Shown piece by piece: positions 17,511-35,719 of a DNA stretch of 64,000 nucleotides (position 1 is its first letter; each line of letters begins with the position of its first letter). A model generated the notes under the pieces. That model did no database searches. It had not been told where the DNA came from and saw only the letters and a list, made by a program, of their open reading frames with translations. The translations under genes and the position numbers were made by a program. Source of the DNA: Paraburkholderia sp. Tr-20389 (GTDB lineage Bacteria > Pseudomonadota > Gammaproteobacteria > Burkholderiales > Burkholderiaceae); assembly GCF_017104565.1 (NCBI RefSeq), contig NZ_JAAGPD010000001.1, positions 434,001 through 498,000 of the forward strand, written 5' to 3'.

Positions 17511-18572
17511 TCAAGGCAGTGGACGGCTGCCCTCCCATGCGCGCTGAAGCAACGCACGAAGCGCAGCTTCCTCGACCGGCCGCGGGTTCCAGTAAGGATT
17601 GGACATGGCGACTGCACACGCGTGATCCAGATCGGACTCGTGCAGGCCGATTTCCCCGAGCCCGCGAGGCACGCCGAGTTCCAGACTCAGTTCATACAGC
17701 CCATCAGGCGCGGAGTCGACGCCGAGCGCCCGCGCGATGCGTGACATCGCTTCATCCGCGACGATGCTGTTATAGGCAAGTGCATGAGGAAGCACGATCG
17801 CGTGCGTCTCCGCATGGGGAAGGTTGAATGTCCCGCCGAGCGTGTGACACAGCTTGTGATGAAGCGCCATGCCGACATTGCCGAGAACCATCCCACAGAG
17901 CCACGCGCCATAGAGACATTCGGCGCGCGCATTTCTGTCCTTGCCATTTTTACTGATACCACGAAGACCGTGCGCGAGAGAGCGAATACCCTCCTCTGCC
18001 ATGAGCGACATGACGGGGTTGCCATCCTTCGCATACAACCCCTCCGCTGCGTGTGCGATTGCGTTGAGACCGCTTACCGTGGAGAGACGAACAGGCAGAT
18101 CGACGGAAAGCTCTGGATCGTAGAGAACGGTCTTTGGAAGAACTTTTGCGTCACGGCCTGTTTTCTTCAGCCCCGCCTCGGTGATGCCGAAGATCGGTGT
18201 CATTTCCGAACCTGCATATGTCGTCGGTATGGCGATGATGGGCAGCGCCGATTCCAATGCGATCGCCTTACCGAGCCCAATCGTCGAGCCGCCACCAATC
18301 GCTACCGCGCAGTCCGCATCGACTGACTTCGCGTACTCGCGCGCGCGACGCGCGTTCTCGATCGGCACGTGCATCTGTGCCCCGTCGAATACGCCCGCGC
18401 TTGAAGGCCCGAGCAGTGATGCGACGATTTCGGCCTGGGTTCTCTGCTCGGGTGTGCAGAGAACCAGTGCCCTGCGTGCGCCCAGTGTTTCGACCTCGTG
18501 CTGCACGAGCTTCATACTGCCGGCGCCGAACACCACACGTGACGCGTGCGTCGTATAGGTAAAGTTGTACAT
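17511..18572 (-). CDS. Maleylacetate reductase
   Basis: A 353-residue iron-containing alcohol dehydrogenase-like protein of the maleylacetate reductase group. The N terminus TTHASRVVFGAGS, the nucleotide motif IGGGSTIGLGKAIAL (residues 92-106), the block AIPTTYAGSEMTPIFGIT and the His-rich region MALHHKLCHTLGGTFNLPHAETHAIVLPH are all typical. It reduces maleylacetate to 3-oxoadipate with NAD(P)H. It is the last gene of the operon that begins with the intradiol dioxygenase at 26892. Together they form the classic two-step lower hydroxyquinol pathway. The start at 18572 (MYNFTYTTH) matches family N termini; the frame runs further upstream without a family match. Confidence 0.92.
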   Translation of the reverse strand: MYNFTYTTHASRVVFGAGSMKLVQHEVETLGARRALVLCTPEQRTQAEIVASLLGPSSAGVFDGAQMHVPIENARRAREYAKSVDADCAVAIGGGSTIGLGKAIALESALPIIAIPTTYAGSEMTPIFGITEAGLKKTGRDAKVLPKTVLYDPELSVDLPVRLSTVSGLNAIAHAAEGLYAKDGNPVMSLMAEEGIRSLAHGLRGISKNGKDRNARAECLYGAWLCGMVLGNVGMALHHKLCHTLGGTFNLPHAETHAIVLPHALAYNSIVADEAMSRIARALGVDSAPDGLYELSLELGVPRGLGEIGLHESDLDHACAVAMSNPYWNPRPVEEAALRALLQRAWEGSRPLP

Positions 18573-18612
18573 GGGATCGAAATTCCTCTTCCTTCGAAAC
18601 CGATCGACACGA

Positions 18613-18909
18613 TCAGATGTAGTCGACCTGGTGCCGCGAGATCCGGCAGTCGCCGAGCACCTGCTTGACGCGCAGATGTTCGGGATGAGACGCGTAGGCG
18701 AAAAGCGCTTCCTGATCGGCAAACTCCGTGTAGAGAACGACGTCGCAGGCGTAGTCGACCCCGCTCACGTCCATGCCGACCTCCAGCCTGGTGAGCCCCG
18801 GTATTTTGCCGGCGAGACTTTCGAAAGCGTGCTTCACCAGCTGGGCCGTGTGCCTCTTTTGCTCCGGCGTCTCGCCGCGAACGTCCCACATGACAATGTG
18901 TTTGATCAT
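18613..18909 (-). CDS. Dabb (stress-responsive alpha/beta-barrel) domain protein
   Basis: A 98-residue ferredoxin-like dimeric barrel protein. The N terminus MIKHIVMWDVRGET and the core YACDVVLYTEFADQEALFAYASHPEHLRV are characteristic of the Dabb family. Most members have unknown function, but some relatives act on polyketides or aromatic products as cyclases or tautomerases. It lies between the importer permease (9 bp) and maleylacetate reductase (40 bp), so it is part of the hydroxyquinol operon. A role in dehydration, aromatisation or tautomerisation of an intermediate is my inference. Confidence 0.85.
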   Translation of the reverse strand: MIKHIVMWDVRGETPEQKRHTAQLVKHAFESLAGKIPGLTRLEVGMDVSGVDYACDVVLYTEFADQEALFAYASHPEHLRVKQVLGDCRISRHQVDYI

Positions 18910-18918
18910 GGTGCCGCC

Positions 18919-20127
18919 TTAAGCCTTGTTCTTGTTGTAGACGTCGACAAAGACCGCGGCTAGCAGCACGATGCCCTTGATGACCTGTTGGTAGTCCACA
19001 CCGATACCCATGATCGACATGCCGTTATTCATCACACCCATGATGAAAGCGCCCACGACCGCGCCCACCACCTTACCGACTCCACCCGATGCCGACGCCC
19101 CGCCGATAAAGCATGCCGCGATGACGTCGAGTTCGAAGCCGGTTCCCGCCTTCGGTGTTCCGCTATTCAGACGCGCGGCGAAGATCAGACCTGCGAGCGC
19201 AGCAAGGACACCCATGTTCACGAAGGTCAGAAAGCTCACTGCCGGAACGCTGACACCCGACAAACGCGCGGCCTTCGCATTACCGCCCACTGCGTAGATT
19301 CGACGTCCGATAGTCGTGCGGTTCATGATGAACGTGTAGACGCCGATCAGCACACCCATGATCACGAGCACAGTCGGCAAGCCGCGATACGACGCAAGCA
19401 GGTAACAGAAGAACACGATGAGCGCCGTCAGGACGACGTTCTTCGCCACGAACATTGCGAAGGAAGCACTTTCGACGCCATGCTTCGCTGCGCCTGCGCG
19501 ATGCCGAAGCTCGATCACGAAGAACAACGCACCGACGAACACACCGAGGAGAATCGAAGTGAGATGCAGCGCCTGTCCATGGAAGACGTCGGGGATGAAA
19601 CCCGAACTCACCGCACCGAAGCCGTCGGGAAACGGGCCAATGGATTGCCCCTGAAGCACCAGGTTAGTCATGCCACGGAAGACCAGCATGCCGGCCAACG
19701 TCACGATGAACGAAGGCATCCGCCAGAAGGCAATCCAGTACCCTTGCACAGCGCCGATCAGTGCGCCCGTCGCGATACAGATGATCGTCGCCCAGACGTA
19801 GTTGATGTCGTACTGCACCATCAGCACGGCCGCCAGGGCGCCGACGAGCCCCGCCGTTGAGCCCACGGAGAGATCGATATGACCTGAGACGATCACCATC
19901 AGCATGCCGAGCGCCATGATGACGATGTAGCTGTTCTGCAGCACCAGGTTGGTTAGATTGAGCGGCTGCATCAGCACGCCATTGGTCGAGAGCTGGAAGA
20001 ACACCATAATGATGACGAGCGAAAGCAGCAAACCATATTCGCTGCCGATACGCTTGACCGTACCGAATACCTCGCCCTTCCTGATCACGGCGCCTTCGGC
20101 GGCCACTGGAGAGAGTGCCTTACGCAT
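18919..20127 (-). CDS. gguB: Sugar ABC transporter permease, GguB/MmsB type
   Basis: A 402-residue inner-membrane permease of the ribose/xylose (XylH, MmsB) family with about 10 hydrophobic segments. The conserved [17 protein letters not shown] and the late block [30 protein letters not shown] are present. It forms the channel for sugars delivered by the ChvE-like protein. The ATG at 20127 has GGAGG 8 nt upstream and overlaps the end of the ATPase gene by 8 bp, indicating coupled translation. Confidence 0.92.
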
Positions 20128-21658
20128 TTTCGATGCCTCCATTTCGCATGATCGCTCGCATGATCTTTTCCTGCGAGACGTCTTCTGCGGTGAATTCGCC
20201 GACGAACCGGCCTTCGTTCATGACATAAACGCGGTCACACATGCCAAGAAGTTCAGGCATTTCCGAGGAAATCATGACCACACACTTGCCCGCTGCAACC
20301 GCCTGATTGATGATGTTGTAGATCTCGTACTTCGCCCCCACGTCGATGCCTCGCGTAGGCTCGTCGAGAATCAGCACCTCGGGTTCGGAGAACAGCCATT
20401 TGCTGAGCACGACCTTTTGCTGGTTGCCGCCCGACAGGTTTCCAACAACGTGCGTGACGCCTTGCGCGCGGATGCGTAGCTTCTTGAGGAAATCGCTCGC
20501 AACCGTGATTTCCGCGTGCTCGTCGACGACGCCATACTTCGACACACCCGCAAGGTTTGCCAGCGTGATGTTTCGCTTGATATTGTCGTCGAGCAGCAGC
20601 CCGTTGCCTTTACGGTCTTCGGTCACGTACGCAATGCCCGCCTTGATGGCTTTCTGGACCGATGAGGTGTCCACCTGCTTTCCATGCATCAGCACCTGAC
20701 CGGTGATGTCCTGGCCATACGTGCCGCCGAACACGCTCATCGCCAGTTCGGTGCGGCCGGAACCCATCAGCCCGGCGATGCCGACGATCTCCCCCTTGCG
20801 TGCCTTCAGATCGACGCCTTTGATGACGGCACGGTCGCGCTGCGTAGGGTGCTGGACTCGCCAATCCCTGACTTCGAAGATCACTTCGCCGATGTCCGGC
20901 GTACGCGGCGGATAGCGATCGGACATCTCGCGGCCGACCATCGCCTTGATGATGCGGTCTTCGCTCACGCTGTCGGTCTGGCAGTCGAGCACGTCGACAG
21001 TCGAGCCATCGCGAATGACGGTGATGCCATCCGCGACCCGTGAAATCTCATTGAGCTTGTGCGAAATGATGATCGACGTCACGCCGCGCGACTTCAACTC
21101 GAGAAGGAGATCGAGCAACGTGTCGCTATCTTTTTCATTCAGACTCGCGGTGGGTTCGTCGAGAATCAACAGGCGAACTTCTTTCGACAGTGCCTTCGCA
21201 ATCTCGACAAGCTGCTGCTTGCCAATGCCGAGCGTGCCGACGGGCGCGTCCGGAGAATCCGTCAGCCCCACCTTCGTCAACAGGTCCTTCGCCTTCGAGC
21301 GCGATATCTGCCAATCGATCACGCCGCGCTTCGACTGCTCGTTACCGAGAAAAATGTTCTCGGTGATCGACAGCATGGGCACGAGGGCGAGTTCCTGATG
21401 GATGATGATGATGCCGACCGCTTCGCTGTCGGAGATGTCGGCGAATGCACGCTCCTGACCGTCGTAGAGCACATCGCCTGCATAACTGCCGTGCGGATAG
21501 ACGCCACTGAGGATTTTCATCAGGGTCGACTTGCCTGCGCCGTTTTCTCCACATATGGCGTGAATCTCGCCTTTACCGACTCTCAGATTCACGTTATTCA
21601 GGGCTTTGACTGCGCCAAAGCTTTTCTGAATTCCGCGCATCTCCAGAATGGTATTCAT
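20120..21658 (-). CDS. gguA: Sugar ABC transporter ATP-binding protein, GguA type
   Basis: A 512-residue tandem ATPase as found in monosaccharide importers. The first domain has Walker [10 protein letters not shown] and Walker [12 protein letters not shown]. The second has a degenerate Walker A ([10 protein letters not shown]), signature [15 protein letters not shown] and Walker [21 protein letters not shown]. This asymmetric layout is normal for XylG/RbsA/GguA proteins. GGAGG lies about 9 nt before the ATG at 21658. It follows the binding-protein gene by 76 bp and precedes the permease in the same operon. Confidence 0.94.
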
Positions 21659-21734
21659 GGTCGCTTCCCTCCGATTTGCCACGCGCGAAGCAGGGCTTCA
21701 CTGGACCGTCCCGCTTCGCTCGCGTACTGATGTC

Positions 21735-22805
21735 TTACTTGAGCTGTGCCTGCGTGTAATACCCGCTCGTGACGAGTTCCGACTGGTAATTGCCCTTGTC
21801 GACCAGCACGGGTTTCACGAGGTAGGTCGGAACGATCCTGGCGCCATTGTTGTAGCTCTTCGTGTCGTTGATGGGCACCTGCTTGCCCGTCAACGCATCG
21901 TCGACCATGTCGGCTGCGACGCTCGCAAGCTTGCGCGTGTCCTTGAATACGGTCGACGTCTGCTCGCCGCGCACGATGTTCTTCACGTTCTGAATGTCGG
22001 CGTCCTGACCTGTGATGATCGGCATGGTTTGCTGACCCGAACCGTATCCCACGCCCTTGAGCGACGAGATGATGCCGATCGCCAGTGCGTCATTCGGCGC
22101 CCAGACCGCATCGAGGTGATCCTTGCCATAAAAGGCGCTCAACAGGTTGTCCATCCGGGCTTGCGCGGTCGCGCCATCCCAGTTGCGGGTCGCGACTTTC
22201 TCGAAAGCAATCTGCTTACTCCGGATCACGAATTTGCCGCTGTCGATGTATGGCTTGAGCACCGACATGCCGCCCGCGTAGACCATGTGGGCATTGTTGT
22301 CGTCAGAGGAACCGCCGAACACTTCGATATTGAACGGCGTCTTGCTGCCCGCTTTCTGCCACGCGCTGACGATGCTCTGCGCTTGCAGAACGCCGACGCC
22401 GTAGTTGTCGAAGGTCGCGTAGTAATCGACGTCCTTGGTCTGGCTGATCAGGCGGTCATACGAAATGACCTTGATGCCCTTCTTCTGCGCGAGCGCCAGC
22501 GCATCTGAGAACGTCTTGCCGTCGATAGGCGCGATGACCAGCGCCTTGACACCTTTCGCGAGCATGTTCTCAACCTGGTTCACCTGCGTCGGAACGTCGT
22601 AGTTCGCGTACTGCAGATCGGACGCGTAGCCCTTCGCTTTCAATGCGTCGACCATGCTTTTGCCGTCGGTGATCCAACGCGATTCGGTCTTGTCCGGCAG
22701 CGATATGCCAACGACGCCCTTGTCCTGGGCGAAAGCGGCGCCGGACGTGGCTGAGAAAGCCGCCGAGGCGGCCAGCATGACAGCGACACTCTTCAAAATC
22801 TTCAT
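21735..22805 (-). CDS. chvE: ChvE-like periplasmic sugar-binding protein
   Basis: A 356-residue periplasmic protein with a clear signal peptide (Lys-rich start, hydrophobic core, cleavage near AFAQ-DKG at residue 26-27). The mature sequence follows ChvE/MmsE of Agrobacterium closely in many blocks: KGVKALVIAPIDGKT, ISYDRLI, YYATFDNYGVGVLQAQSI, NIEVFGGSSDDNNAHM, ARMDNLLSAFY, GIISSLKGVGYG and FKDTRKLA. ChvE proteins bind aldoses, galacturonate and related polyhydroxy rings. Here, between oxidoreductase and ATPase genes, it is the recognition component for whatever polyol or glycoside the operon degrades. Confidence 0.93.
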   Translation of the reverse strand: MKILKSVAVMLAASAAFSATSGAAFAQDKGVVGISLPDKTESRWITDGKSMVDALKAKGYASDLQYANYDVPTQVNQVENMLAKGVKALVIAPIDGKTFSDALALAQKKGIKVISYDRLISQTKDVDYYATFDNYGVGVLQAQSIVSAWQKAGSKTPFNIEVFGGSSDDNNAHMVYAGGMSVLKPYIDSGKFVIRSKQIAFEKVATRNWDGATAQARMDNLLSAFYGKDHLDAVWAPNDALAIGIISSLKGVGYGSGQQTMPIITGQDADIQNVKNIVRGEQTSTVFKDTRKLASVAADMVDDALTGKQVPINDTKSYNNGARIVPTYLVKPVLVDKGNYQSELVTSGYYTQAQLK

Positions 22806-22829
22806 GACATCGTCTCCTGTTTAGGAATG

Positions 22830-22845
22830 CGTATTTACATATACG
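22830..22845. promoter_or_regulatory. AT-rich dyad in the leader of the ChvE-like gene
   Basis: CGTAT-N6-ATACG, a perfect interrupted dyad, lies 25-40 bp upstream of the ChvE-like start in the largest gap (97 bp) inside the operon. It contains TACATAT (ATATGTA on the other strand), which recurs at 25927, 25942 and 30481 upstream of other genes of this regulon. It may be an operator for the LacI regulator at 28171. Confidence 0.35.
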
Positions 22846-22902
22846 TTTTATGAGGTACGGCGTTATCGGGCTGACGCGCGGAGGCGTCAGCCATATAAAC
22901 CC

Positions 22903-23991
22903 TTAACCGATAAAGACCTCTGCTCCAGCTTCTTTGGATGAGGCGAACATCGCCTCGATGACGCGGCTGATGTTGTATGCCTGCGTCGCGGGAACGACCG
23001 ACGGCGTGCCATTGCGCAGTGCGCCGAAGAACGCGTTGGACTCGCGGTCGAAGTACACCGGATTGCCGATCTCGGCGATGTCGGGCGAATACTCGGTCTT
23101 TTTCGTCGCCCAGATTTCCGGAAAGCTGGTCTCCTGCCACTCGGTCCAGCCTTCAGGATGATCGCCTTTGCCCGCGTCATAAATCTTGTAGCTGGCAGGC
23201 AGCGAGCGCGACGACATGATGCCCTCTGTCCCGTAGGCGGTGATGTCCCAGCTCTCGGTCCAGGGCAGAACGTCCCATGACATGAAGTCGACGGTGACGA
23301 TCTTGTCTTCGTAGTTGAGCACGGCACCCGCCGCATCTTCACGCGATTCATCGCCATGGAAGTTCGGAAACTTCGTGATGCGGGCGTTCACGGAGCGTGG
23401 CAGACCGAAGTGCAGAAGAATGCGATCGATCAAATGGCAGCCGATCACGAACACGGCACCGCCGATGTCGCCGGGTTGCGTCATGTGCGGCGTTCCGGCC
23501 TCGTCGTGCGAACAACCGGCGTGAGCGCGCACCTGAACCACTTTGCCGAGACGGTCGCTCTTCAGCGCGGCCTGCATCGCATCCACCGAAGGAGCAAAGC
23601 GCCAGCAATAGCCGACTTGAAAGAGACCGCCGGTCCGCTCGACTGCATCGGCGATACGCTTTGCATCCGCGGAACTGCGGCCGGCCGGTTTCTCGCACAA
23701 CACCGCCTTGCCGGCTTCGAGTGCTTCGATGGTCAGGTCGGCCATTTTTTCACTCTTGGAGTGAACGAGCACGACATGAACGTTCTCGTCCGCGAGAATG
23801 TCTTCCTTCGTGCGTGCTTCGAGTCCGAGCGCATCGACGAACGGCGTGAGCAGCGGGCTCGTATCCCAGGCACCGAGCATCTTCGCGTCGGTACGGCGCT
23901 GGATCGCCTTGACTCGCCCGGAAGTGTGCGGGTGAGTAATGCCAAGACAGGCGACACCAAGCGTCTGGTCCGGATCAATCTTTCGCGTCAT
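22903..23991 (-). CDS. Gfo/Idh/MocA-family oxidoreductase with atypical dinucleotide loop
   Basis: A 362-residue Gfo/Idh/MocA protein. The LCEKPAG motif with the family lysine is at residues 98-104, and the C-terminal domain has GGAVFVIGCHLIDRILLHFG in place of the usual GG-D-G-H-D block. The N-terminal Rossmann loop reads GVACLGITHPHTSGR instead of the common G-x-G-x-x-G, so cofactor binding may differ. Such enzymes oxidise a ring hydroxyl of sugars or cyclitols with NAD(P). It is 24 bp after the second oxidoreductase gene, and GGAGGAG lies before its ATG. The exact reaction is unknown. Confidence 0.88.
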   Translation of the reverse strand: MTRKIDPDQTLGVACLGITHPHTSGRVKAIQRRTDAKMLGAWDTSPLLTPFVDALGLEARTKEDILADENVHVVLVHSKSEKMADLTIEALEAGKAVLCEKPAGRSSADAKRIADAVERTGGLFQVGYCWRFAPSVDAMQAALKSDRLGKVVQVRAHAGCSHDEAGTPHMTQPGDIGGAVFVIGCHLIDRILLHFGLPRSVNARITKFPNFHGDESREDAAGAVLNYEDKIVTVDFMSWDVLPWTESWDITAYGTEGIMSSRSLPASYKIYDAGKGDHPEGWTEWQETSFPEIWATKKTEYSPDIAEIGNPVYFDRESNAFFGALRNGTPSVVPATQAYNISRVIEAMFASSKEAGAEVFIG

Positions 23992-24015
23992 GACGTATCT
24001 CCTCCGGATTCCTGG

Positions 24016-25008
24016 TTACACCTTGACGGCTTTGCCCGTCAGCGCGGATTCGAGTGCGGCATCGGCGAGGCGCAATGCCTTGAGCCCGTCCTGCACCGAA
24101 GTCGGCAGTGGCGAATTCGTGTTCAGTGCTGCGACGAAAGCTTCGAGTTCGGCCTTGTACGCCGCCTCGTAGCGTTCAAGGAAGAAGTTGAGCAGCGGCT
24201 CGCGCACGTCGGTCGCCTGCTTCGACCAGCGACGAATCGTCGACGGACGTAGGTTCTCTTGCAGGAGCATGCCTTTCGAACCGGACACTTCCATGCGCTG
24301 GTCGTAGCCATAGACAGCTTCGCGGCAGCAGTTGATGTGGCATTGCTTGCCCGATGCCGTGCGCAACTGCACCATCACCGTATCGAAGTCGGTCAGTTCT
24401 TCAAGCGATGCGTCGATGAGGCGGCTAGCCATCGCCATGACTTCGACAGGCTCTTCGCCCAGCAGCCAGCGCGCCATGTCGAGATCGTGAATCACCATGT
24501 CGCGGAAGATGCCGCCCGAGTGCTCGACATAGTCACGCGGAGGCATGCCAGGATCGCGGCTCGAAATGATGACCTGTCGCACCTCGCCAACGTCACCCGC
24601 ATCGATCGCCTTGCGGAAAGCCTGCGACGTCGGATCGAAACGGCGATTGAAGGCGAGCATGACGCGACCGCCCTGACGTTCGACCTCGTTCGCTGCGGCC
24701 AGCGATTTGTCCATGTCAAGATCGATGGGCTTTTCGCATAGAACAGCCTTGCCGCGCCTGACCGCTTCGAGCATGAACGTGATGTGCGTGTCCGTCGGCG
24801 TGCCGATCACCACGGCGTCGATATCCTTGCGTTCGAGCACGCCTGCCGGATCCGTGGATGCTTCGCAGCCGAGTCGACTGGCCAGCGAGTTCGCTGCGCT
24901 TTCAACCGGGTCCGCCACCACGACCAGTTTTGCGTTCGTGCTCGCGGCCACATTGGTTGCGTGAATGCGGCCAATGCGGCCCGCACCGAGTACGGCGATT
25001 CGAATCAT
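24016..25008 (-). CDS. Gfo/Idh/MocA-family dehydrogenase, IolG (inositol 2-dehydrogenase)-like
   Basis: A 330-residue NAD-dependent dehydrogenase. The Rossmann motif GAGRIGRIHATN is at residues 8-19. The catalytic lysine is Lys93 in CEKP. The block SGGIFRDMVIHDLDMARWL supplies Asp170 and His174 with the same D-x-x-x-H spacing as the Lys-Asp-His set of Bacillus IolG. It is therefore expected to oxidise a ring hydroxyl of inositol or a related polyol to a ketone (inosose). It is 41 bp after the TIM-barrel gene in the hydroxyquinol operon. ATG at 25008 has AGGAG upstream. Related levoglucosan or glycoside 3-dehydrogenases share this form, so the substrate is open. Confidence 0.9.
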   Translation of the reverse strand: MIRIAVLGAGRIGRIHATNVAASTNAKLVVVADPVESAANSLASRLGCEASTDPAGVLERKDIDAVVIGTPTDTHITFMLEAVRRGKAVLCEKPIDLDMDKSLAAANEVERQGGRVMLAFNRRFDPTSQAFRKAIDAGDVGEVRQVIISSRDPGMPPRDYVEHSGGIFRDMVIHDLDMARWLLGEEPVEVMAMASRLIDASLEELTDFDTVMVQLRTASGKQCHINCCREAVYGYDQRMEVSGSKGMLLQENLRPSTIRRWSKQATDVREPLLNFFLERYEAAYKAELEAFVAALNTNSPLPTSVQDGLKALRLADAALESALTGKAVKV

Positions 25009-25049
25009 GTGAGTCTCCTGAGATACCTTGTCGTTTGAGGTGGAGGGCT

Positions 25050-25928
25050 TCAGACGGAAGCTGCGCTTTTGGCCGAGAACTGTGCGACTGTCGAGTCGTA
25101 TGCACGCTTTGCCATTTCGTCGAGCGGGAATTTCCGGTGCACCTCGGAGATGAGCTCCACGCCGAAGTACGGCAGCGTGCAGCCCGCCTGCTCCAGAGCA
25201 TCGACGAAAGCACGGCAGTCGCCTGCACCTTCGCCGCAAAGCTGGCGGTTAAAGGTCGAGTCGTCGAACAGAGACCCTTTGACCTGCGCGCCGATGTCGT
25301 CCATTTCTACGCCCTTGATGAAACGTGCCGGGATCTGTGCGACCTCGCTGTACGGCGTGCCGGCGCGCGCAACGTGCCAGTGGTCGACCATCAGACCACC
25401 GTTCGGCTGATCGGCGCCTTCCGCAATCTTCAACGCTTCAGCGACGTTCCGGATGGGAGAAAACGGCATGAATTCGATTGCAACCGTAGCGCCAACCGTT
25501 CCGACGTCCTGGCAAAGCGTTGCGAATTCGTCGGTCATGCGGGCGAAGTCGGCCGGATTCCTGTCGAATGGATTTGCACCGATCTTCAGATTGCGCATGC
25601 CCAGTTCGCTGCCCAGTTCGATGAAACGGCGTCGGGAGTGGTCCGATTTCGCGCGTGCTTCACCGTCGCAATACCAGTCCATGAGGATTTCGAGTTCGAA
25701 GTACTTCATGCCCGTGTCGTCCAGCAACGCCTTGACGCCTGACAGGCCGTACTTCCCGATGCTGTATTCGAGGTCGTCGAGAATGAGTCCGATGCCGCTC
25801 CATCCGGCCCGCGACGCCGCTTCACAGCGGTCGCGCAGCGGGAACGGGCTGACTTCGTTCGGTGCACAGGGATAGACATCGCCGGCGAGGGTCCAGTACG
25901 CTGCCAGCAATTCCTTATTCGGTTTCAT
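25050..25928 (-). CDS. Xylose-isomerase-like TIM-barrel protein (IolE / 3-dehydroshikimate dehydratase superfamily)
   Basis: A 292-residue TIM-barrel of the sugar-phosphate isomerase/AP-endonuclease-2 superfamily. Likely metal ligands are Glu152 (VAIEFMPF), Asp182 with His183 (GLMVDHWH), the acidic VEMDD at 208-211, and Glu258 (GVELISE). Enzymes of this fold include IolE, which dehydrates 2-keto-inositol, and 3-dehydroshikimate dehydratases, which dehydrate a keto-cyclohexane to an aromatic ring. Lying between the ring-cleaving dioxygenase and an IolG-like dehydrogenase, it is the best candidate for the dehydration step that leads to hydroxyquinol. An epimerase or glycoside-lyase role is also possible. 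Confidence 0.85.
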   Translation of the reverse strand: MKPNKELLAAYWTLAGDVYPCAPNEVSPFPLRDRCEAASRAGWSGIGLILDDLEYSIGKYGLSGVKALLDDTGMKYFELEILMDWYCDGEARAKSDHSRRRFIELGSELGMRNLKIGANPFDRNPADFARMTDEFATLCQDVGTVGATVAIEFMPFSPIRNVAEALKIAEGADQPNGGLMVDHWHVARAGTPYSEVAQIPARFIKGVEMDDIGAQVKGSLFDDSTFNRQLCGEGAGDCRAFVDALEQAGCTLPYFGVELISEVHRKFPLDEMAKRAYDSTVAQFSAKSAASV

Positions 25929-25948
25929 ATGTAGTATTCCTATATGTA
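25927..25948. promoter_or_regulatory. Pair of ATATGTA sites before the TIM-barrel gene
   Basis: Two copies of ATATGTA start 15 bp apart (25927 and 25942) within an AT-rich patch immediately before the TIM-barrel start; the first overlaps the start codon. The motif also occurs before the ChvE-like gene and before the porin. Possible operator half-sites for the LacI regulator. Confidence 0.3.
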
Positions 25949-25992
25949 TTACCGTGATCGGTCTCTTTGATACATAGATGCTTACCAGACGG

Positions 25993-26892
25993 TTACGGGA
26001 TTGCTTGTTCGGCCTTGCTTGAATTGGCTAGCGTAAAGTCCCATGACACCGACCAGAACGGCGACGAGAACCCTGCACGCTTCGCGGCGCGAGCGTCGTC
26101 GACTTTGTTGAAATCAGCGATCAGTTCACGCTTGACGCCGAATACGGCGTCTTCCGTCAGATACGGGCAGTCAGGGGTGAAGATGTGAGTGATGACCGGC
26201 TCGAAGCCCGGCGCCGTCACGATGAAGTGCAGGTGAGCAGCACGATTGGGGTGCCGGCCCATCGCAGCGAGCAGCTTTCCGACCGGGCCGTCTGCGGGAA
26301 TCGGATAGTGACGCGGCTTGACGGACTTGAAGCAGTAACGGCCTTCGGCATCCGATGTGAAGACGCCACGCAGGTTTGAGTCAGGCTGAATGCCCTTCTG
26401 CTGCACGTCATAGAATCCATCGTCGTTGGTCTGCCAGACTTCGAGCTTTGCGTTCGGAATCGGATTGCCCTCGATGTCCGTCACGCAGCCTTCGACCATC
26501 ATGGGCTCACCCTTTCCATCCAGGCAGATGTTCTCGCCGTTCGAATACTCGGGCGCGTTAGCCACGTAGAAGGGACCCAGAATGGTGTTCGGCGTTGCGC
26601 CACTCGGTCGACGATGATTGATTGCATCGACGAGCATGGAGACGCCGAGAATGTCGGACAGCAGGATGTACTCTTGCCGCCAGTCGGTACACATCTGGCC
26701 TGTCTCGGTCAGGAAGCGAATGGCCGTGAACCACTCTTCATGCGTCGGCTCGATTTCCTTGACGGCAGCATGCAGATGTTTGACCAGAACCGACATGACC
26801 TGCCGGAGGCGAGCGTCCGCATCGTCGCTCATGCGGGCATTGACGACATCCGCCGAGCTTGCTTCATCGAAGTACTGCGCTGCGCGTTCCAT
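25993..26892 (-). CDS. Intradiol ring-cleavage dioxygenase, hydroxyquinol 1,2-dioxygenase type
   Basis: A 299-residue Fe(III) intradiol dioxygenase. The N-terminal helical dimerisation domain includes TGQMCTDWRQEYILLSDILG, and the segment TILGPFYV precedes the beta-sandwich. Predicted iron ligands are Tyr161 (DGFYDV), Tyr196 (KPRHYPIP), His220 and His222 (RAAHLHF). The stretch IPADGPVGKLLAAMGRHP resembles hydroxyquinol dioxygenases more than catechol dioxygenases. The reaction would open 1,2,4-trihydroxybenzene to maleylacetate, matching the maleylacetate reductase at the far end of the same operon. The ATG at 26892 has GGAG about 9 nt upstream; an ATG at 26907 lacks a good ribosome site. It is the first gene after the promoter element at 26936. 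Confidence 0.92.
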   Translation of the reverse strand: MERAAQYFDEASSADVVNARMSDDADARLRQVMSVLVKHLHAAVKEIEPTHEEWFTAIRFLTETGQMCTDWRQEYILLSDILGVSMLVDAINHRRPSGATPNTILGPFYVANAPEYSNGENICLDGKGEPMMVEGCVTDIEGNPIPNAKLEVWQTNDDGFYDVQQKGIQPDSNLRGVFTSDAEGRYCFKSVKPRHYPIPADGPVGKLLAAMGRHPNRAAHLHFIVTAPGFEPVITHIFTPDCPYLTEDAVFGVKRELIADFNKVDDARAAKRAGFSSPFWSVSWDFTLANSSKAEQAIP

Positions 26893-26935
26893 AGTGCCTG
26901 TCTCCATCTGTCTTGTCGTTCAGCTTTGAATCGAG

Positions 26936-27000
26936 TTTATATTCCCCAAAGCCGGCAAAACAGAGCTGAAAAGGGAAAGTCATTCGCGCCACGTGGGAAA
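26936..27000 (-). promoter_or_regulatory. Promoter and operator element of the hydroxyquinol operon (copy 1)
   Basis: Read on the minus strand this stretch carries two TTTCCC boxes 22 bp apart (plus-strand 26995-27000 and 26973-26978), a candidate -35 CTGTTT (26958-26963), a 16-bp spacer and a -10 TATAAA (26936-26941). Transcription would start near 26929, about 37 nt before the dioxygenase ATG. Nearly the same arrangement and sequence recurs at 30593-30657 upstream of the porin. The two-turn spacing of direct repeats just upstream of the -35 suits an activator such as the adjacent LysR. Confidence 0.6.
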
Positions 27001-27025
27001 CTGCAAGGCCCGCACACACATGGCG

Positions 27026-27940
27026 TCATGCGGTCCAGCGCCGTTCATATTCGTTTTGCTGAAAGCGTTCAACGAGTGCATCGATGAACAAACGAACCTT
27101 GACAGGCATATGGGATCGGGTCTGGAAAGCGAGATTCATCGTGAGCCTTGGCAGATCCCAATCGTCGAGCACAGGGACGAGACGGCCTGCCATCAGGTCG
27201 TCGTACACGATGTATTTCGGCTGCACGAGAATGCCCATGCCGTCTAGCGCCGCTGCCCGAAGTATCTGGCCGTCGTTGGACTCGACCAGCGGCTTGATCT
27301 TCACGACAACCGACTCGCCGTTGCGCTGAAACGCCAGTTCGCGTGGATTGTCGGCAAGGCCGTAGTTCAGCAGCCGGTGTCTGACCAGTTCTGCCGGAAA
27401 GCGCGGCGAACCATTTGCATCGATATAGGAAGGCGCGGCCGCCAGAATCCGTCGGGTCGAAGCCAGCCGTCGGACCGTGATGTTGCTGTCCGCTTCGAGA
27501 ACCTTGGTACGAACGGCGACATCGATGCCGTTCTCGATGATGTCGTAGTAGCGATTGGCTGCCACGACGTCGACGGAAATGTCGGGATAGCGTGCCGTGA
27601 AGTCAGGCAGCATCGGCGCGATATGCAGCAGGCAGAATGAGAGAGACGCGGTGACGCGAAGGACACCGCTCGGTCGTACCGTAGCGTCCTTGATGACCGA
27701 CTCAGCTTCTCCAAGGTCGGCAAGAATGGGTTTGCAGCGACGATGAAACTCCGCGCCGGCTTCAGTGAGGTAGAGATTCCTTGTCGTCCGCCGAACCAGC
27801 TGAACGCCTAGCCGGGTCTCCAGTGAGATCAGGTAACGGCTTGCCGCGGAGATCGAAAGGTCGACGGCCTCCGCAGCCCGACTGATGCTGCCCGTTTCCG
27901 CAACCTCAACGAACAGTTGTAGTTCCTTGAACTGGTCCAT
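27026..27940 (-). CDS. LysR-family transcriptional regulator of the hydroxyquinol operon
   Basis: A 304-residue LysR protein of the single-residue-rich QLQLFVEVAETG type: N terminus MDQFKELQLFVEVAETGSISRAAEAVDLSISAASRYLISLE, then an effector domain ending near 290. It is encoded directly upstream of the dioxygenase in the same direction, with the duplicated promoter element lying in the 130-bp gap between them. It diverges from the LacI gene at 28171. It is the likeliest activator for the TTTCCC repeats, sensing hydroxyquinol or a downstream intermediate; this is inference. Confidence 0.9.
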   Translation of the reverse strand: MDQFKELQLFVEVAETGSISRAAEAVDLSISAASRYLISLETRLGVQLVRRTTRNLYLTEAGAEFHRRCKPILADLGEAESVIKDATVRPSGVLRVTASLSFCLLHIAPMLPDFTARYPDISVDVVAANRYYDIIENGIDVAVRTKVLEADSNITVRRLASTRRILAAAPSYIDANGSPRFPAELVRHRLLNYGLADNPRELAFQRNGESVVVKIKPLVESNDGQILRAAALDGMGILVQPKYIVYDDLMAGRLVPVLDDWDLPRLTMNLAFQTRSHMPVKVRLFIDALVERFQQNEYERRWTA

Positions 27941-28170
27941 CTTGCTACACCATCCCGGTTCTCAAACTTGCACAGTAGCGACGCGACCCGGCGTGCCAAT
28001 CGAGTGGGAAATACATCAAATTCAAATCATGTCGAGGGATTACCCTGATCGTCCCGTCCTTTCGTTATCGCGGCACGTCGGCCGTAGTGGCATGCACGAA
28101 GAATAGCCGCTCATGTCGACATTGGACTATCATAAAACCATCAAAAAACCATCAAACGAGAGGCATCGAA

Positions 28171-29211
28171 ATGGCTCATCGTTTTCTGATCAAGGAAATC
28201 GCGCTTCAGGCTGGGTTGGGCGTCGCGACAGTCGACCGCGTCCTCAATGGACGCGCGCACGTTCGAGAGCACACCCGCAAGCGCGTCGAGCAGGCCATCA
28301 AGGAACTCGAAAAGCAGGAACTGCAACTGGCGACGGCCGGACGAAAACTTGTCGTCGATGTCGTCGTAGAAGCGCCCGCACGCTTTGCCGATGAAATCAA
28401 GAGCGCCCTCGAAGCTGAATTGCCGATACTGCATCCCGCCGTGTTTCGACCGCGTTTCCTGATGCGCGAAACGATGACCACCGAAGAAGTCGTCGACACG
28501 CTTGAATCGATAGGACGCAGAGGAAGCCACGGGGTGTTTCTCAAGGCGCGCGACGTGCCGGAGATTGCCAAAGCGATTGGCGAACTGCAGCATCGCGGGA
28601 TTCCGGTCATTACGACCTTCACCGATATTCCTCTGTCAGGACGCATCGCGTACACCGGCCTGGATAATCGCGTTGCCGGCGCAACGGCCGCATACCTGAT
28701 TACCCAATGGCTTGGCTCGCGACCCGGCAATGTCCTCATCACCATGAGCGACGAACGCTTCCGTGGCGAAGAAGAACGTGAAATCAGTTTTCGACGCGCT
28801 CTTAGAGCCCGGCATCCGCAACTCACTTTGATCGACGCGAGTGGCGGCCATGGACTCGATACGCCGACCGAAGAGCGAGTGCGCAACGTCCTTGCAACGC
28901 ATGATCAGATCGCCGCGGTGTACTCGATGGGCGGCGGAAACATTGCGATTCTCCGCGCCCTCGACAAGCAGCAGAGCGCCCCCGTGCTCTTCATCGCACA
29001 TGATCTCGACAGGGACAACATTCGTCTGCTGCGCGAAGGCAAAGTACAGGCCATTCTTCATCATGAACTTCGTCAGGACATGCGCTCTGCCTGTCATCAC
29101 GTGATGCACTATCACAAGCTCCTTCCTGCGTCGGCGGTGTCGCCCTCTTCATCGGTCGTCGTCGTGACGCCGGAGAACATTCCCGAGCACATAGCAAGCC
29201 GGTTTCGTTGA
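28171..29211 (+). CDS. LacI-family transcriptional regulator with sugar-binding domain
   Basis: A 346-residue LacI regulator. The helix-turn-helix is at the N terminus (LIKEIALQAGLGVATVDRVLNGRAHVREHTRKRV) and a periplasmic-binding-protein-like effector domain follows (YTGLDNRVAGATAAYLITQWLG, then VYSMGGGNIAILRAL). I chose the ATG at 28171 because the helix-turn-helix begins directly after it and GAGAGG precedes it. Placed next to a ChvE-type importer and polyol dehydrogenases, it most likely senses the imported sugar or cyclitol, while the LysR senses the aromatic stage. The 230-bp gap to the LysR gene holds both promoters. Confidence 0.9.
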   Translation: MAHRFLIKEIALQAGLGVATVDRVLNGRAHVREHTRKRVEQAIKELEKQELQLATAGRKLVVDVVVEAPARFADEIKSALEAELPILHPAVFRPRFLMRETMTTEEVVDTLESIGRRGSHGVFLKARDVPEIAKAIGELQHRGIPVITTFTDIPLSGRIAYTGLDNRVAGATAAYLITQWLGSRPGNVLITMSDERFRGEEEREISFRRALRARHPQLTLIDASGGHGLDTPTEERVRNVLATHDQIAAVYSMGGGNIAILRALDKQQSAPVLFIAHDLDRDNIRLLREGKVQAILHHELRQDMRSACHHVMHYHKLLPASAVSPSSSVVVVTPENIPEHIASRFR

Positions 29212-29278
29212 TCGCGATGTGTGACTTGATCACCGGGGCTCGGGATACGCCCATCTCCCGAACCCCATCGCCTAGCTG

Positions 29279-30466
29279 TCAGAACCGGGTAGCCAGGCCC
29301 GCTATAACACCGAACTGACTTTTGCCATAGTTCGGATTCGTGCTGGTCGGACTGCCACTGACCGGGTCGTTGTTGCTATTCGGACCATAGAGCCCACTGT
29401 CGAGCCCGAGATTCGATGTCGAACTGTTATGCAGGTAAGCCAGTTCGCTATACAGGAGCGTTCGCTTGGACAGCGAGTAGTTCGCGCCGAGCGTATACAT
29501 CGTCCCATTGCCGTTGCCGTGGTTGGCGTTCGCGTGATAGACCGCCCCCGTCACAGCCAGCGACGGCGTCGTCTGCCAGATCGCGCCTAGCCATTCGTGA
29601 TTGACGGCAGTCGGCAAACTCGTTCCCGCCGGCAGAGCGGGCGCCGTCGCGCTACCAAAGTAACCGGTGTTCGACGCGTCAGGCGCACTGAGGTGCTGAT
29701 AACCGAGAAAAACGAGCACGGAGCCGATCGCATAGGTAGCGCCTGTCAGGATGGAACGGGAAGCCAGATAGACGTTGCTGAACTGCCCGTTTGGATCACG
29801 CACCTCGTCGTACGTGGCCTGCCAGTAGAGGCTACCTACCTGGTACGACAGCTTGATGCCGTCGGAACGCCCCTGCGCGCTGCCAAGACCGGTCGATGTG
29901 CCAAGCTGGCTCGGTGCGCTACCCGGATTGCCGGCGTTCCACTTCGGCGAATTGGTGAGATCGTATTGGCCCTGGAGCGTGAAGCCCGCGATCTTCGGCG
30001 ACAGATATTCGATGCCGTTGCCGGCCTGCGAGAAGATGCGGCCGCGCACAAGCGTGCCAATCGCGTACTTCTTGGTTTCCTGGGGATCGACGTCGCCCGA
30101 ATACTGGCTGATTTCAGCGGAGCCCATGTTGCCCGCCTTCAATTGGCCCCACGTTTCGTTGTGCACGCCGACCGTCGCCTGGCCCGCAAAGAACGTACCG
30201 TTTGCAAAGGTCCCGTTTTGCGTGTTCAGACGCGATTCGAGCTGAAAAATCGCCTGCGTACCGCCGCCAAGGTCCTCTGCTCCCTTGAGGCCGAACCGGG
30301 ACTCAGCCCATCCGCCGCTTTGCGCACCGAAGACGTTTCCCTTTGGGAGTCCCGTCTCGTATTGCAGTCCGTTATCGACGATTCCATACAACGTCACATT
30401 GCTGCTTTGTGCACTTGCCGACGCTGCGGCAGTTGCGGCCACCAATCCACACAGTACCTTCTTCAT
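29279..30466 (-). CDS. Gram-negative porin (Burkholderia OmpC-like)
   Basis: A 395-residue outer-membrane porin. The signal peptide MKKVLCGLVAATAAASASA is followed by QSSNVTLYGIVDNGLQYETG, the usual first strand of burkholderial porins, and the chain ends in the outer-membrane sorting signal VIAGLATRF. Alternating strand patterns (for example SRFGLKGAEDLGGGTQAIFQLESRL) run through the protein. GGAGGAG lies 7 nt before the ATG. A near copy of the dioxygenase promoter element lies 127-192 bp upstream, so this channel is probably co-induced with the hydroxyquinol operon to admit its substrate. Confidence 0.93.
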   Translation of the reverse strand: MKKVLCGLVAATAAASASAQSSNVTLYGIVDNGLQYETGLPKGNVFGAQSGGWAESRFGLKGAEDLGGGTQAIFQLESRLNTQNGTFANGTFFAGQATVGVHNETWGQLKAGNMGSAEISQYSGDVDPQETKKYAIGTLVRGRIFSQAGNGIEYLSPKIAGFTLQGQYDLTNSPKWNAGNPGSAPSQLGTSTGLGSAQGRSDGIKLSYQVGSLYWQATYDEVRDPNGQFSNVYLASRSILTGATYAIGSVLVFLGYQHLSAPDASNTGYFGSATAPALPAGTSLPTAVNHEWLGAIWQTTPSLAVTGAVYHANANHGNGNGTMYTLGANYSLSKRTLLYSELAYLHNSSTSNLGLDSGLYGPNSNNDPVSGSPTSTNPNYGKSQFGVIAGLATRF

Positions 30467-33951: not shown

Positions 33952-35445
33952 TCACGCAGGAAATCCGTAGGTGGTCCATTTCGCGAGTACCGAACGCCTG
34001 AGTTCTTCAGGAAACGAGGTATTGAACGAAGCAACCGTTGCACGCATCTCGCCGCGAAACTGCTCCGGGAACAGACAGTTGATAATCGCTTTGCCGCCCT
34101 TGCCCGAGGCCTTTTCTTCCGGACTCAGATACGGGACGAGGGGAATGCCCGTTGCGTCAGGAAACGCGAAGTGATCTTTCGCGGGATGATGCCGCGTTGC
34201 GAGTGCCCAAACCACTGCGTCGATGTCCGTGATGTCGATGTCGTTGCTGACCAGAATCACCTTGGGTACCAGCCAGCCCGCGTGCGACGAGAAGAGAATC
34301 CCGGCAATCAGATTGGCAAAATTCGGCGCATCGGTTTGCATCGTACGCAACCTGGCTGTGTCGATTGAAAGCACGATCCAGCACGTGGCGGCTTCATACG
34401 AACACCACGCCATGTCCACCGGCATATTGGCGCGACGCAAGAGATCGAGCACCTGAGCCGAGATCATGGTTCCCCAGATGGTGTGATTCTCTTCAGGCGG
34501 AAGCCCCGCAGCGCATATCGGCAAGACAGGATCGTTTCTGAACGTCACGGCTTCAACGTGAAAGAGCGGTTGCTCGCGTCCGACCGGAAAAGAATAACCG
34601 TGGTACTCGCCCATCGGGCCTTCCATCGCTTTCTCCGAGAGACTGATCGTTCCCTCCAGAACGATTTCGGCATTAGCCGGCACGAGAAGATCGTTCGTTT
34701 CGGCTTTGACGACTTCAACGGGATCGCCGACCATTGCGCCGACGTACCCACTCTCACTCACCCACTCGGGCAGCGGCATTCCGGCGACCGCGAGCGCTGC
34801 AGGCGGAGCGCCAAGCGCCATCGCCCAGGGTGTGGGTTCTCCGCGCAGCTTCCACATTTCGCGAATCATCCCTAGGTGCTGCTGTGGCATGGCCGGCCCC
34901 ACCAGCGTGTTTCTGTCGTGCAGCATGGAGCGCGCGACAGACCAGCTGTCCCACTTGCCGTCGGGGCTTTGAACCACGTGAAATCCGTATGTGCCGAAGT
35001 ACCGACCACCATCTGCCGCATGAAGCAAGGGAACAGGGAATCTGGTCAGATCCACTTGCGAGCCACGCCAGATGTTTTCCTTGCAAGGACCCGTCTCCAC
35101 GATGCGCGGATCGACGGGCGATGAATGCGAAGCGGCGATGATGCGTTCGACGATGTCCCGCGGACTCGCGGACTTCGGCAAACCAAAGTGAAGCGCAAGC
35201 CGACCATACTCTTCTCCTGCATGTCGATTGAGTCCCGCTGGCGCACCCAATACACGGAACCCCGTTTGCGCGCCCTCGATCGATGCGAAGAGCGGCGCAG
35301 GCGCCCGGTCTTCATAGACCTTTCGCGTAATGGCTCCGATCTCCAGGTCGGCATCGACCGTTTGCCGGATGTCGACCAGATCGTTTCTCCGCCGCAGTTC
35401 ATCGATGAACGATCTGAAGTTCAAGCATGGAGAAAGATTCGACAT
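33952..35445 (-). CDS. UbiD-family decarboxylase (second copy, substrate unknown)
   Basis: A 497-residue UbiD-family protein distinct from HmfF. Visible family blocks include NLSPCLNFRSFIDELRRRNDLVDI, the cofactor-region DGGRYFGTYGFHVVQSPDGKWDS, and VLEGTISLSEKAMEGPMGEYHGYSFPVGREQPLF with the conserved acid-Gly-Pro-Met-Gly-Glu motif. UbiD enzymes reversibly decarboxylate aromatic or alpha,beta-unsaturated acids with prenylated FMN. ATG at 35445 has GGAGG 5 nt upstream. It diverges from an acyl-CoA ligase gene at 35720, suggesting an aromatic or unsaturated acid pathway. No UbiX gene is adjacent; the one at 11463 could supply cofactor. Confidence 0.9.
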   Translation of the reverse strand: MSNLSPCLNFRSFIDELRRRNDLVDIRQTVDADLEIGAITRKVYEDRAPAPLFASIEGAQTGFRVLGAPAGLNRHAGEEYGRLALHFGLPKSASPRDIVERIIAASHSSPVDPRIVETGPCKENIWRGSQVDLTRFPVPLLHAADGGRYFGTYGFHVVQSPDGKWDSWSVARSMLHDRNTLVGPAMPQQHLGMIREMWKLRGEPTPWAMALGAPPAALAVAGMPLPEWVSESGYVGAMVGDPVEVVKAETNDLLVPANAEIVLEGTISLSEKAMEGPMGEYHGYSFPVGREQPLFHVEAVTFRNDPVLPICAAGLPPEENHTIWGTMISAQVLDLLRRANMPVDMAWCSYEAATCWIVLSIDTARLRTMQTDAPNFANLIAGILFSSHAGWLVPKVILVSNDIDITDIDAVVWALATRHHPAKDHFAFPDATGIPLVPYLSPEEKASGKGGKAIINCLFPEQFRGEMRATVASFNTSFPEELRRSVLAKWTTYGFPA

Positions 35446-35719
35446 CGTCGCCTCCAGTATTGAAACCACCAATCAGCGATCGTACTCGCGTGCGCTTCGA
35501 TCCGGCGCGCTTTCGATAGCACGACATTAAGGTAATAGGCTACTTAAGCCGCGTTGCCGTGCAGGTCGATGGATATGTCGTACGCCATATTCCCAGACGC
35601 ACTGTGCCGACCCACACTCATCGAAATGCGATGTCTTTTGTACTAACACGTGAAGGTAACCTCTCGCTCCCATCCGTTCTATAACAGACGGAGCACATGA
35701 TCACATTCCGGAGGGCAGC

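Follow-up and report, generated by a model that had tools for sequence, protein, structure and literature searches.

An operon of Paraburkholderia sp. Tr-20389 that probably turns a cyclitol into hydroxyquinol and 3-oxoadipate

The DNA analysed here (the window) is a stretch of 64,000 nucleotides from Paraburkholderia sp. Tr-20389 (positions 434,001 to 498,000 of contig NZ_JAAGPD010000001.1, assembly GCF_017104565.1), which carries on its minus strand, at 17511-26907, nine closely spaced co-directional genes that may serve the breakdown of cyclitols. In order, they are: a predicted hydroxyquinol 1,2-dioxygenase of the intradiol class (25993..26907; Pfam and PDB relatives); a xylose-isomerase-like TIM barrel, proposed to act as a cyclitol-ketone (inosose) dehydratase/aromatase (25050..25928; Pfam and structure model); a predicted IolG-like inositol dehydrogenase (24016..25008; TIGR04380; open reading frame from 25239); a second Gfo/Idh/MocA protein, called Gfo2 (22903..23991; Pfam); a ChvE-type periplasmic sugar-binding protein (21735..22805; NF040907); a GguA-type ABC ATPase (20120..21682; NF040905); a GguB-type ABC permease (18919..20142; NF040906); a Dabb (stress-responsive A/B barrel) protein (18613..18909; PF07876); and a predicted maleylacetate reductase (17511..18572; Fe-ADH; open reading frame from 18722). 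With probable starts judged by eye at about 25008 (IolG-like), 18572 (maleylacetate reductase) and 21658 (GguA), the genes are separated by about 64, 41, 24, 97 and 76 bases, a 23-base overlap, and 9 and 40 bases. The small gaps, the common strand, and the placing of the ring-cleavage dioxygenase first and the maleylacetate reductase last all agree with a preliminary description made from the sequence and its reading frames. Ahead of the nine genes lies a LysR-type regulator (27026..27940, minus strand; Pfam), and the span is finished by a divergent LacI-family regulator with a sugar-binding-protein-like sensor domain (28087..29211, plus strand; Pfam; its true start is probably downstream of 28087) and by a Gram-negative porin of the Porin_4 family (29279..30466, minus strand; Pfam), a member of the unit in Burkholderiaceae.

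The best PDB relative of the dioxygenase is a 6-chlorohydroxyquinol 1,2-dioxygenase (317.6 bits), followed by PnpC (258.5 bits) and hydroxyquinol 1,2-dioxygenase (252.2 bits), with the best catechol dioxygenase at 137.6 bits; by these likenesses the enzyme is of the hydroxyquinol type. The product of the last gene matches the solved maleylacetate reductases 3w5s (398 bits) and 3hl0 (377 bits), while its top PDB match, 3jzd (500 bits), is named just an iron-containing alcohol dehydrogenase; as far as sequence comparison goes, it is a maleylacetate reductase. This pair of enzymes is shared with the hydroxylase-fed lower pathways of the resorcinol, nitrophenol and chlorophenol routes, from which the operon differs in that it has no hydroxylase and that the partners of the pair are an importer, dehydrogenases and a TIM barrel. 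The three importer proteins score above their NCBIfam cut-offs (ChvE-type, 478 against 460 bits; GguA-type, 857.7 against 810; GguB-type, 563.5 against 450), and the Pfam assignments of the Dabb protein and of a second Gfo/Idh/MocA enzyme likewise uphold what had been described. The IolG-like protein (P0006) reaches 395.4 bits on the inositol 2-dehydrogenase model TIGR04380 (cut-off 355), and the residues Lys93, Asp170 and His174, by which it had been recognized, are each at least 95% conserved among 49 aligned members including that of the window. Its PDB relatives are 4hkt and 3euw (OxiD), the latter its second-best match. Gfo2 is highly conserved, with GITHPHTSGR in place of the GxGxxG loop; its best PDB match, DgpA, is weak (6.1e-15, with a best stretch of about 130 residues). 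Fold matches of Gfo2 were set aside, its model being of low confidence (pLDDT 70.1).

The structure model of the TIM barrel (pLDDT 95.6) has Lmo2234, IolI and 5hmq/QuiC1 as its nearest relatives. The preliminary description had called it a protein of the IolE/dehydroshikimate-dehydratase fold; the QuiC-like fold stands, and the IolE identity is replaced by the closer relation to IolI and QuiC. The barrel structure alignment comprised 38 of 51 non-redundant barrels. Elimination of aglycones, too, is catalysed by TIM barrels of this superfamily, which lends some weight to an alternative in which an aryl O- or C-glycoside is imported, the Gfo/Idh enzymes oxidise its sugar 3-hydroxyl, the barrel splits off the aglycone and the polyphenol set free (hydroxyquinol) undergoes ring cleavage. 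The sugar-type importer suits this, as does the match, weak as it is, of Gfo2 to DgpA, a protein of C-glycoside cleavage. The profile of the barrel, however, finds IolI and 5hmq/QuiC1 and names no C-deglycosidase among its 17 PDB matches (E <= 1e-4), an absence that is no proof; nor is a TIM-barrel deglycosidase named among the 50 further rows listed for the barrel, which does not exclude one. A small partner of the DgpB/CarB type, a feature of C-glycoside deglycosylation, is missing from the Pfam domains of the operon, the IolG-like protein exceeds the cut-off for inositol dehydrogenases, and glycosides with hydroxyquinol as aglycone are, to our knowledge, rare, so that a hydroxylase would usually be needed. 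We regard the glycoside alternative as unlikely, and as weaker than a cyclitol substrate.

To see in what company the barrel occurs, contigs of one genome per species were scanned with a TIM alignment, which confirmed 121 relatives; the best 80 by likeness to the window barrel were kept (two of these loci, L072 and L075, share one contig and layout, so that 80 loci are not 80 genomes). Open reading frames were labelled automatically from a reference set built on annotated plasmid regions, three entries of which (labels P450, MCP and AMIDO) are truncated features and perhaps not in frame; stops in the set were written X. Within about 10 kb of the barrel, 60 of the 80 loci have the dioxygenase, 57 the reductase, 54 both and 63 either one. 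All 63 of these linked loci possess a dehydrogenase of the IolG, Gfo2 or SDR type; sugar ABC genes are present in 59, Dabb or YciI in 58 and a Dabb relative in 54. At least two dehydrogenase genes are contiguous with the barrel in 55 of them, one in three, and none in five (L049-L053), which carry an SDR and a Gfo-type gene in the divergent arm. Close Burkholderiaceae (at least 78% identity) account for 20 of the 80 loci, and without these the linked fraction is 43 of 60. The own 9-Mb genome holds two dioxygenases of at least 50% identity and four intradiol matches in total, and a random 20-kb stretch is expected to meet such a dioxygenase in about 0.5-1% of cases (a rough estimate, with no shuffled control); set against this, a dioxygenase at 60 of 80 barrel loci is linkage beyond chance. 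The co-occurrence of these families in other genomes, which the preliminary description had marked as a thing to look for, is thus found. In a barrel tree of 59 rows (a chosen subset, close copies omitted), the clade of the window (96% SH-aLRT) contains 28 rows, all 28 linked to the dioxygenase or reductase, and the linkage label changes at least 8 times across the whole tree.

The linked gene sets come in several architectures. Of 153 plasmid records with a match, ten named regions were examined and seven contain the dioxygenase: a plasmid of Azospirillum oryzae carries the same set of nine genes, one of Aureimonas an IolG and Gfo2 cluster with the dioxygenase at the opposite end, and plasmids of Rhizobium, Agrobacterium, Sinorhizobium, Shinella and the actinobacterium Rhodococcus opacus carry SDR-based clusters. 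In the dioxygenase trees (chosen subsets of 50 and 39 rows, close copies omitted) the Aureimonas-Jannaschia type groups with the SDR-type rhizobial enzymes and is separate from the Burkholderiaceae-Pseudomonas-Azospirillum type. The pairing of barrel and dioxygenase, as read from these trees and layouts, outlasts gene replacement, across architectures and dioxygenase lineages. In one Burkholderiaceae genome (L123) a more distant barrel (30%) lies directly behind a reductase and dioxygenase, and genes for the handling of 3-oxoadipate are also present in 9 of the 63 linked loci and in the Aureimonas and Agrobacterium clusters. Among 90 other loci, relatives (E <= 1e-30) of the LysR gene were found in 68, of the LacI gene in 26 (including the SDR-type clusters L049, L052 and L053) and of the porin in 20 (about 80-84% identical). 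These relatives recur and those of a UbiD gene further out do not (see below), so the conserved unit corresponds approximately to the span that had been marked at the outset. With gene identities, conservation and linkage as observed, the operon is a real, recurrent metabolic unit.

Several of the loci have features of their own. L057, L059, L071 and similar Pseudomonas loci each carry a pair of hydroxyquinol-type dioxygenases that belong to different lineages; the pair is split over divergent arms, separated by a LysR gene and genes for porins or porters. In the Burkholderiaceae loci L049-L053 an FMN reductase and an amidohydrolase lie between the dioxygenase and the barrel, and in L127 and L128, from the same family, the barrel is divergent from a Gfo and sugar ABC set with the dioxygenase further along. 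On the Curtobacterium plasmid (L026 8982-13749) a barrel homologue, perhaps an inosose dehydratase, sits between iolG and iolB-iolD. Distant barrels of sphingomonads (L020, L096, L099, L100 and L104) have no hydroxyquinol genes in their locus; that of L020 adjoins annotated choline-dehydrogenase/FAD-binding proteins and, by eye, those of L099 and L100 CoA-transferase-like genes. The sphingomonad loci point to another use of the barrel family.

Within the genus, Gfo2, a close dioxygenase (at least 82%) and a close barrel occur, adjacent to each other, in the same 18 of 118 genomes, the own genome included; 17 of the close barrels are at least 78% identical and one is an 88% fragment. Further barrel types of the genus (52%; 42-43%) have a dioxygenase within about 9 kb in all three regions examined (L127-L129); six more genomes with these types lie outside this count. 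Of 14 IolG-family matches in the own genome, only the two of the operon are within 40 kb of an intradiol match, and the 19 kb examined around its second barrel (L124, contig C32) contain no such dioxygenase. Chance adjacency of sugar and aromatic genes was rejected in view of the recurrent linkage, its persistence across dioxygenase lineages and the joint gain and loss in the genus. Contig C23 of the same genome (L121 8755-13852) carries a second pair of dioxygenase and maleylacetate reductase, next to genes for an aldehyde dehydrogenase and for the large subunit of a hydroquinone 1,2-dioxygenase-type enzyme; it looks like a separate hydroquinone-type pathway. Contig C21 (L122 9076-17897) carries an iol-type cluster with two IolG-family genes, one of them scoring 422 bits and so above the cut-off, to which inspection by eye adds an RpiR-like regulator, genes of the sugar ABC type and a reading frame resembling a kinase; at the start of its permease reading frame an 18-residue repeat occurs in tandem, which points to a repeat in the DNA. 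In genome G318 (contig C71 5637-7945; assembly marked 10% contaminated) there is an apparent remnant of the operon, in which a close dioxygenase is present, the barrel and Gfo2 matches are incomplete and overlapping, and no IolG gene lies between them.

If the operon degrades hydroxyquinol, one may ask where this compound comes from. The Pfam domains of the operon proteins include no aromatic hydroxylase, as the preliminary description had held for flavin monooxygenases, and in the related loci an FAD-monooxygenase motif was found in one of the 63 linked loci (L037), beyond the porin and outside the operon; the motif is a heuristic, two-component hydroxylases are outside its scan, and of 63 unlabelled reading frames in or near the clusters Pfam identified few. 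A UbiD-family decarboxylase is encoded in the window at 33952-35472 (minus strand), about 3.5 kb beyond the porin; it is above the TIGR00148 subfamily cut-off and scores 417 bits on the BagN/FevL model, below the cut-off of that model. A relative (E <= 1e-30) was found in none of the 90 other loci, where it would be expected just inside the 10-kb flank and some loci are shorter, and UbiD was rejected as an aromatic source because of this absence. Luciferase-type flavin enzymes are encoded close to the barrel in five loci of Pseudomonas, two of which share a contig and a layout, and on one Agrobacterium plasmid. Together with the second dioxygenase-reductase pair, which shows related aromatic chemistry elsewhere in the genome, the nearby UbiD gene and these flavin enzymes are what speaks for an ordinary aromatic lower pathway that happens to stand beside an unrelated sugar or inositol operon, with a hydroxylase elsewhere making hydroxyquinol. 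We consider this improbable, given the linkage of dioxygenase and/or reductase to sugar-type genes in varied orders and lineages, the gain or loss of the genes together within the genus, and the lack of UbiD in the other loci.

A source within the operon is chemically conceivable. When the ring positions were enumerated on a small scale, hydroxyquinol resulted from a deoxyinositol by oxidation beside the CH2 group and two dehydrations (from other positions pyrogallol can arise as well); an inositol gives only tetrahydroxybenzenes after one oxidation and two dehydrations, and, when it is oxidised, dehydrated, reduced and dehydrated twice, gives hydroxyquinol, with pyrogallol possible, at no net redox change. 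The preliminary description had balanced the formula for a deoxyinositol, which needs one oxidation; this balance holds and is not the only one, as C6H12O6 - 3 H2O = C6H6O3 fits too. The redox-neutral inositol route would explain the two dehydrogenases in most clusters. A chemical conversion of myo-inositol to 1,2,4-substituted benzenes by threefold elimination has been reported (PMC11467972). The enumeration also allows a cyclitol pathway in which the dioxygenase substrate is a tetrahydroxybenzene, arising from inososes without reduction, or the pyrogallol that some deoxyinososes yield beside hydroxyquinol. This seems very improbable: the dioxygenase groups with hydroxyquinol enzymes, the maleylacetate reductase suits hydroxyquinol cleavage, and no tetrahydroxybenzene is named in the Corynebacterium glutamicum passages discussed below.

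The following route is our inference as regards the kind of substrate, every upstream step and the parts played by Gfo2 and Dabb. The substrate would be a plant- or soil-derived cyclitol, one of the inositol isomers or else a deoxyinositol, for instance a quercitol, taken up via the porin and the ChvE-GguAB importer. The IolG-like enzyme would oxidise one ring hydroxyl to a ketone, and the IolI/QuiC-like barrel would remove water beta to it; more water loss, with or without the help of Dabb, would aromatise the ring to hydroxyquinol (1,2,4-trihydroxybenzene). Gfo2, or the SDRs in other clusters, may make a second redox adjustment; with an inositol as substrate, the dione formed by the first dehydration would be converted by Gfo2 to a 2-deoxy-inosose in a reduction, and three waters would be lost overall. 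Hydroxyquinol would then pass by way of the dioxygenase and maleylacetate reductase to 3-oxoadipate. D-vibo-quercitol 1-dehydrogenases have reportedly been obtained from Burkholderia terrae and a Pseudomonas sp., which we mention as a lead. Among the titles and abstract starts listed from the open-access literature, no description of a cyclitol-to-hydroxyquinol pathway was found.

The making of an aromatic ring in order to consume an alicyclic polyol is known from the quinate/shikimate route, where the polyol is oxidised, dehydrated to an aromatic by a TIM barrel, and led by intradiol cleavage to 3-oxoadipate. The operon is best read as a cyclitol analogue of this pathway and would not be a member of it, because the models for QuiC and protocatechuate dioxygenases are not reached: the barrel scores 31.9 bits on the QuiC model NF042435 (cut-off 1200, a two-domain model), and the window stays at 55.1 bits (cut-off 296.4) on TIGR02422 and at 32.3 (cut-off 126.25) on TIGR02423, both for protocatechuate 3,4-dioxygenase. 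The likeness to QuiC and AsbF lies in the xylose-isomerase-like barrel, related by fold; the product there is protocatechuate, whereas here it would be hydroxyquinol, the dehydrogenases are inositol-type, and cleavage falls to a hydroxyquinol dioxygenase with maleylacetate reductase. With the canonical iol pathway (IolG, IolE, IolD, IolB, IolC and IolJ) the operon would share the IolG-like first step and a ketone-dependent dehydration thereafter, and the fold of the barrel is closely related to that of the iol protein IolI. Pfam and NCBIfam scans found no iolD, iolB or iolC in the operon, however, and the canonical pathway hydrolyses the ring that would here be aromatised.

A possible parallel exists in C. 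glutamicum. In the passages available to us, the inositol transporter gene iolT2 lies in one region with rhcM2D2, encoding a maleylacetate reductase and a catechol-type dioxygenase, under a repressor with an IclR-type domain, IhtR, that is released by 1,2,4-trihydroxybenzene (PMC7764795, PMC9603128). The adjoining gene numbers, cg3389-cg3392, belong to oxiC-cg3390-oxiD-oxiE; here oxiD and oxiE encode inositol dehydrogenases, and cg3390 encodes a putative sugar phosphate isomerase (PMC9603128). OxiC lacks the catalytic Asp and a full GxGxxG (PMC7764795, PMC9603128), oddities that, by eye, are also seen in Gfo2. The regions differ in that C. glutamicum has the transporter iolT2 and an IclR-type regulator, and the window operon an ABC importer. 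Control of a polyol importer by an aromatic would make sense if the polyol became that aromatic, a link that the text of these papers, as far as available, does not draw.

Several points weigh against a cyclitol-to-hydroxyquinol function. Seventeen of the 80 barrel loci have neither dioxygenase nor maleylacetate reductase (some are on short contigs); in the tree, eight form a separate group of distant barrels, seven fall within the large clade to which the linked barrels belong and two are not included. Their sources are sphingomonads, metagenome bins of Gammaproteobacteria and other Proteobacteria, Bacteroidota and, in a few cases, Rhizobiales, Pseudomonas and Acetobacteraceae; the barrel must therefore have other uses or partners. 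The plasmid regions of Sphingobium, Halobaculum and Curtobacterium likewise have no dioxygenase. Gfo2 is without an assigned reaction, hydroxyquinol for the dioxygenase could come from a hydroxylase encoded at another place in the genome, and the luciferase-type flavin enzymes count mildly in the same direction. With a separate iol-type cluster in the genome, myo-inositol would perhaps be served twice. As to C. glutamicum, inositol failed to release IhtR in the passages available (PMC7764795, PMC9603128), and the parallel consists only of literature and the strong match of P0006 to OxiD.

On balance, the operon probably has a catabolic function, converting a cyclitol to hydroxyquinol and this to 3-oxoadipate. 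Neighbourhoods conserved in several bacterial families and architectures, the almost complete lack of an FAD hydroxylase and the regulation in C. glutamicum strongly support, without proving it, the core of the preliminary description, that the ring is made in the operon itself from an imported polyol; the IolE label and the reading by a deoxyinositol balance alone were revised. Less probable is a widespread and so far undescribed strategy in which ordinary inositol loses three waters to become a benzene ring, without net redox change, and is then degraded as an aromatic; this would also account for the 1,2,4-trihydroxybenzene control of the inositol importer in C. glutamicum and give OxiC and Cg3390 a function. 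If the cyclitol route is true, the TIM barrel, Gfo2 and Dabb, which accompany hydroxyquinol genes in dozens of species, would gain functions, and the published regulatory link in C. glutamicum would be explained. The bearers of the gene set, many of them soil and plant bacteria as judged by their names and sources, would then possess a catabolic route for cyclitols and enzymes that make a trihydroxybenzene from carbohydrate without oxygen.

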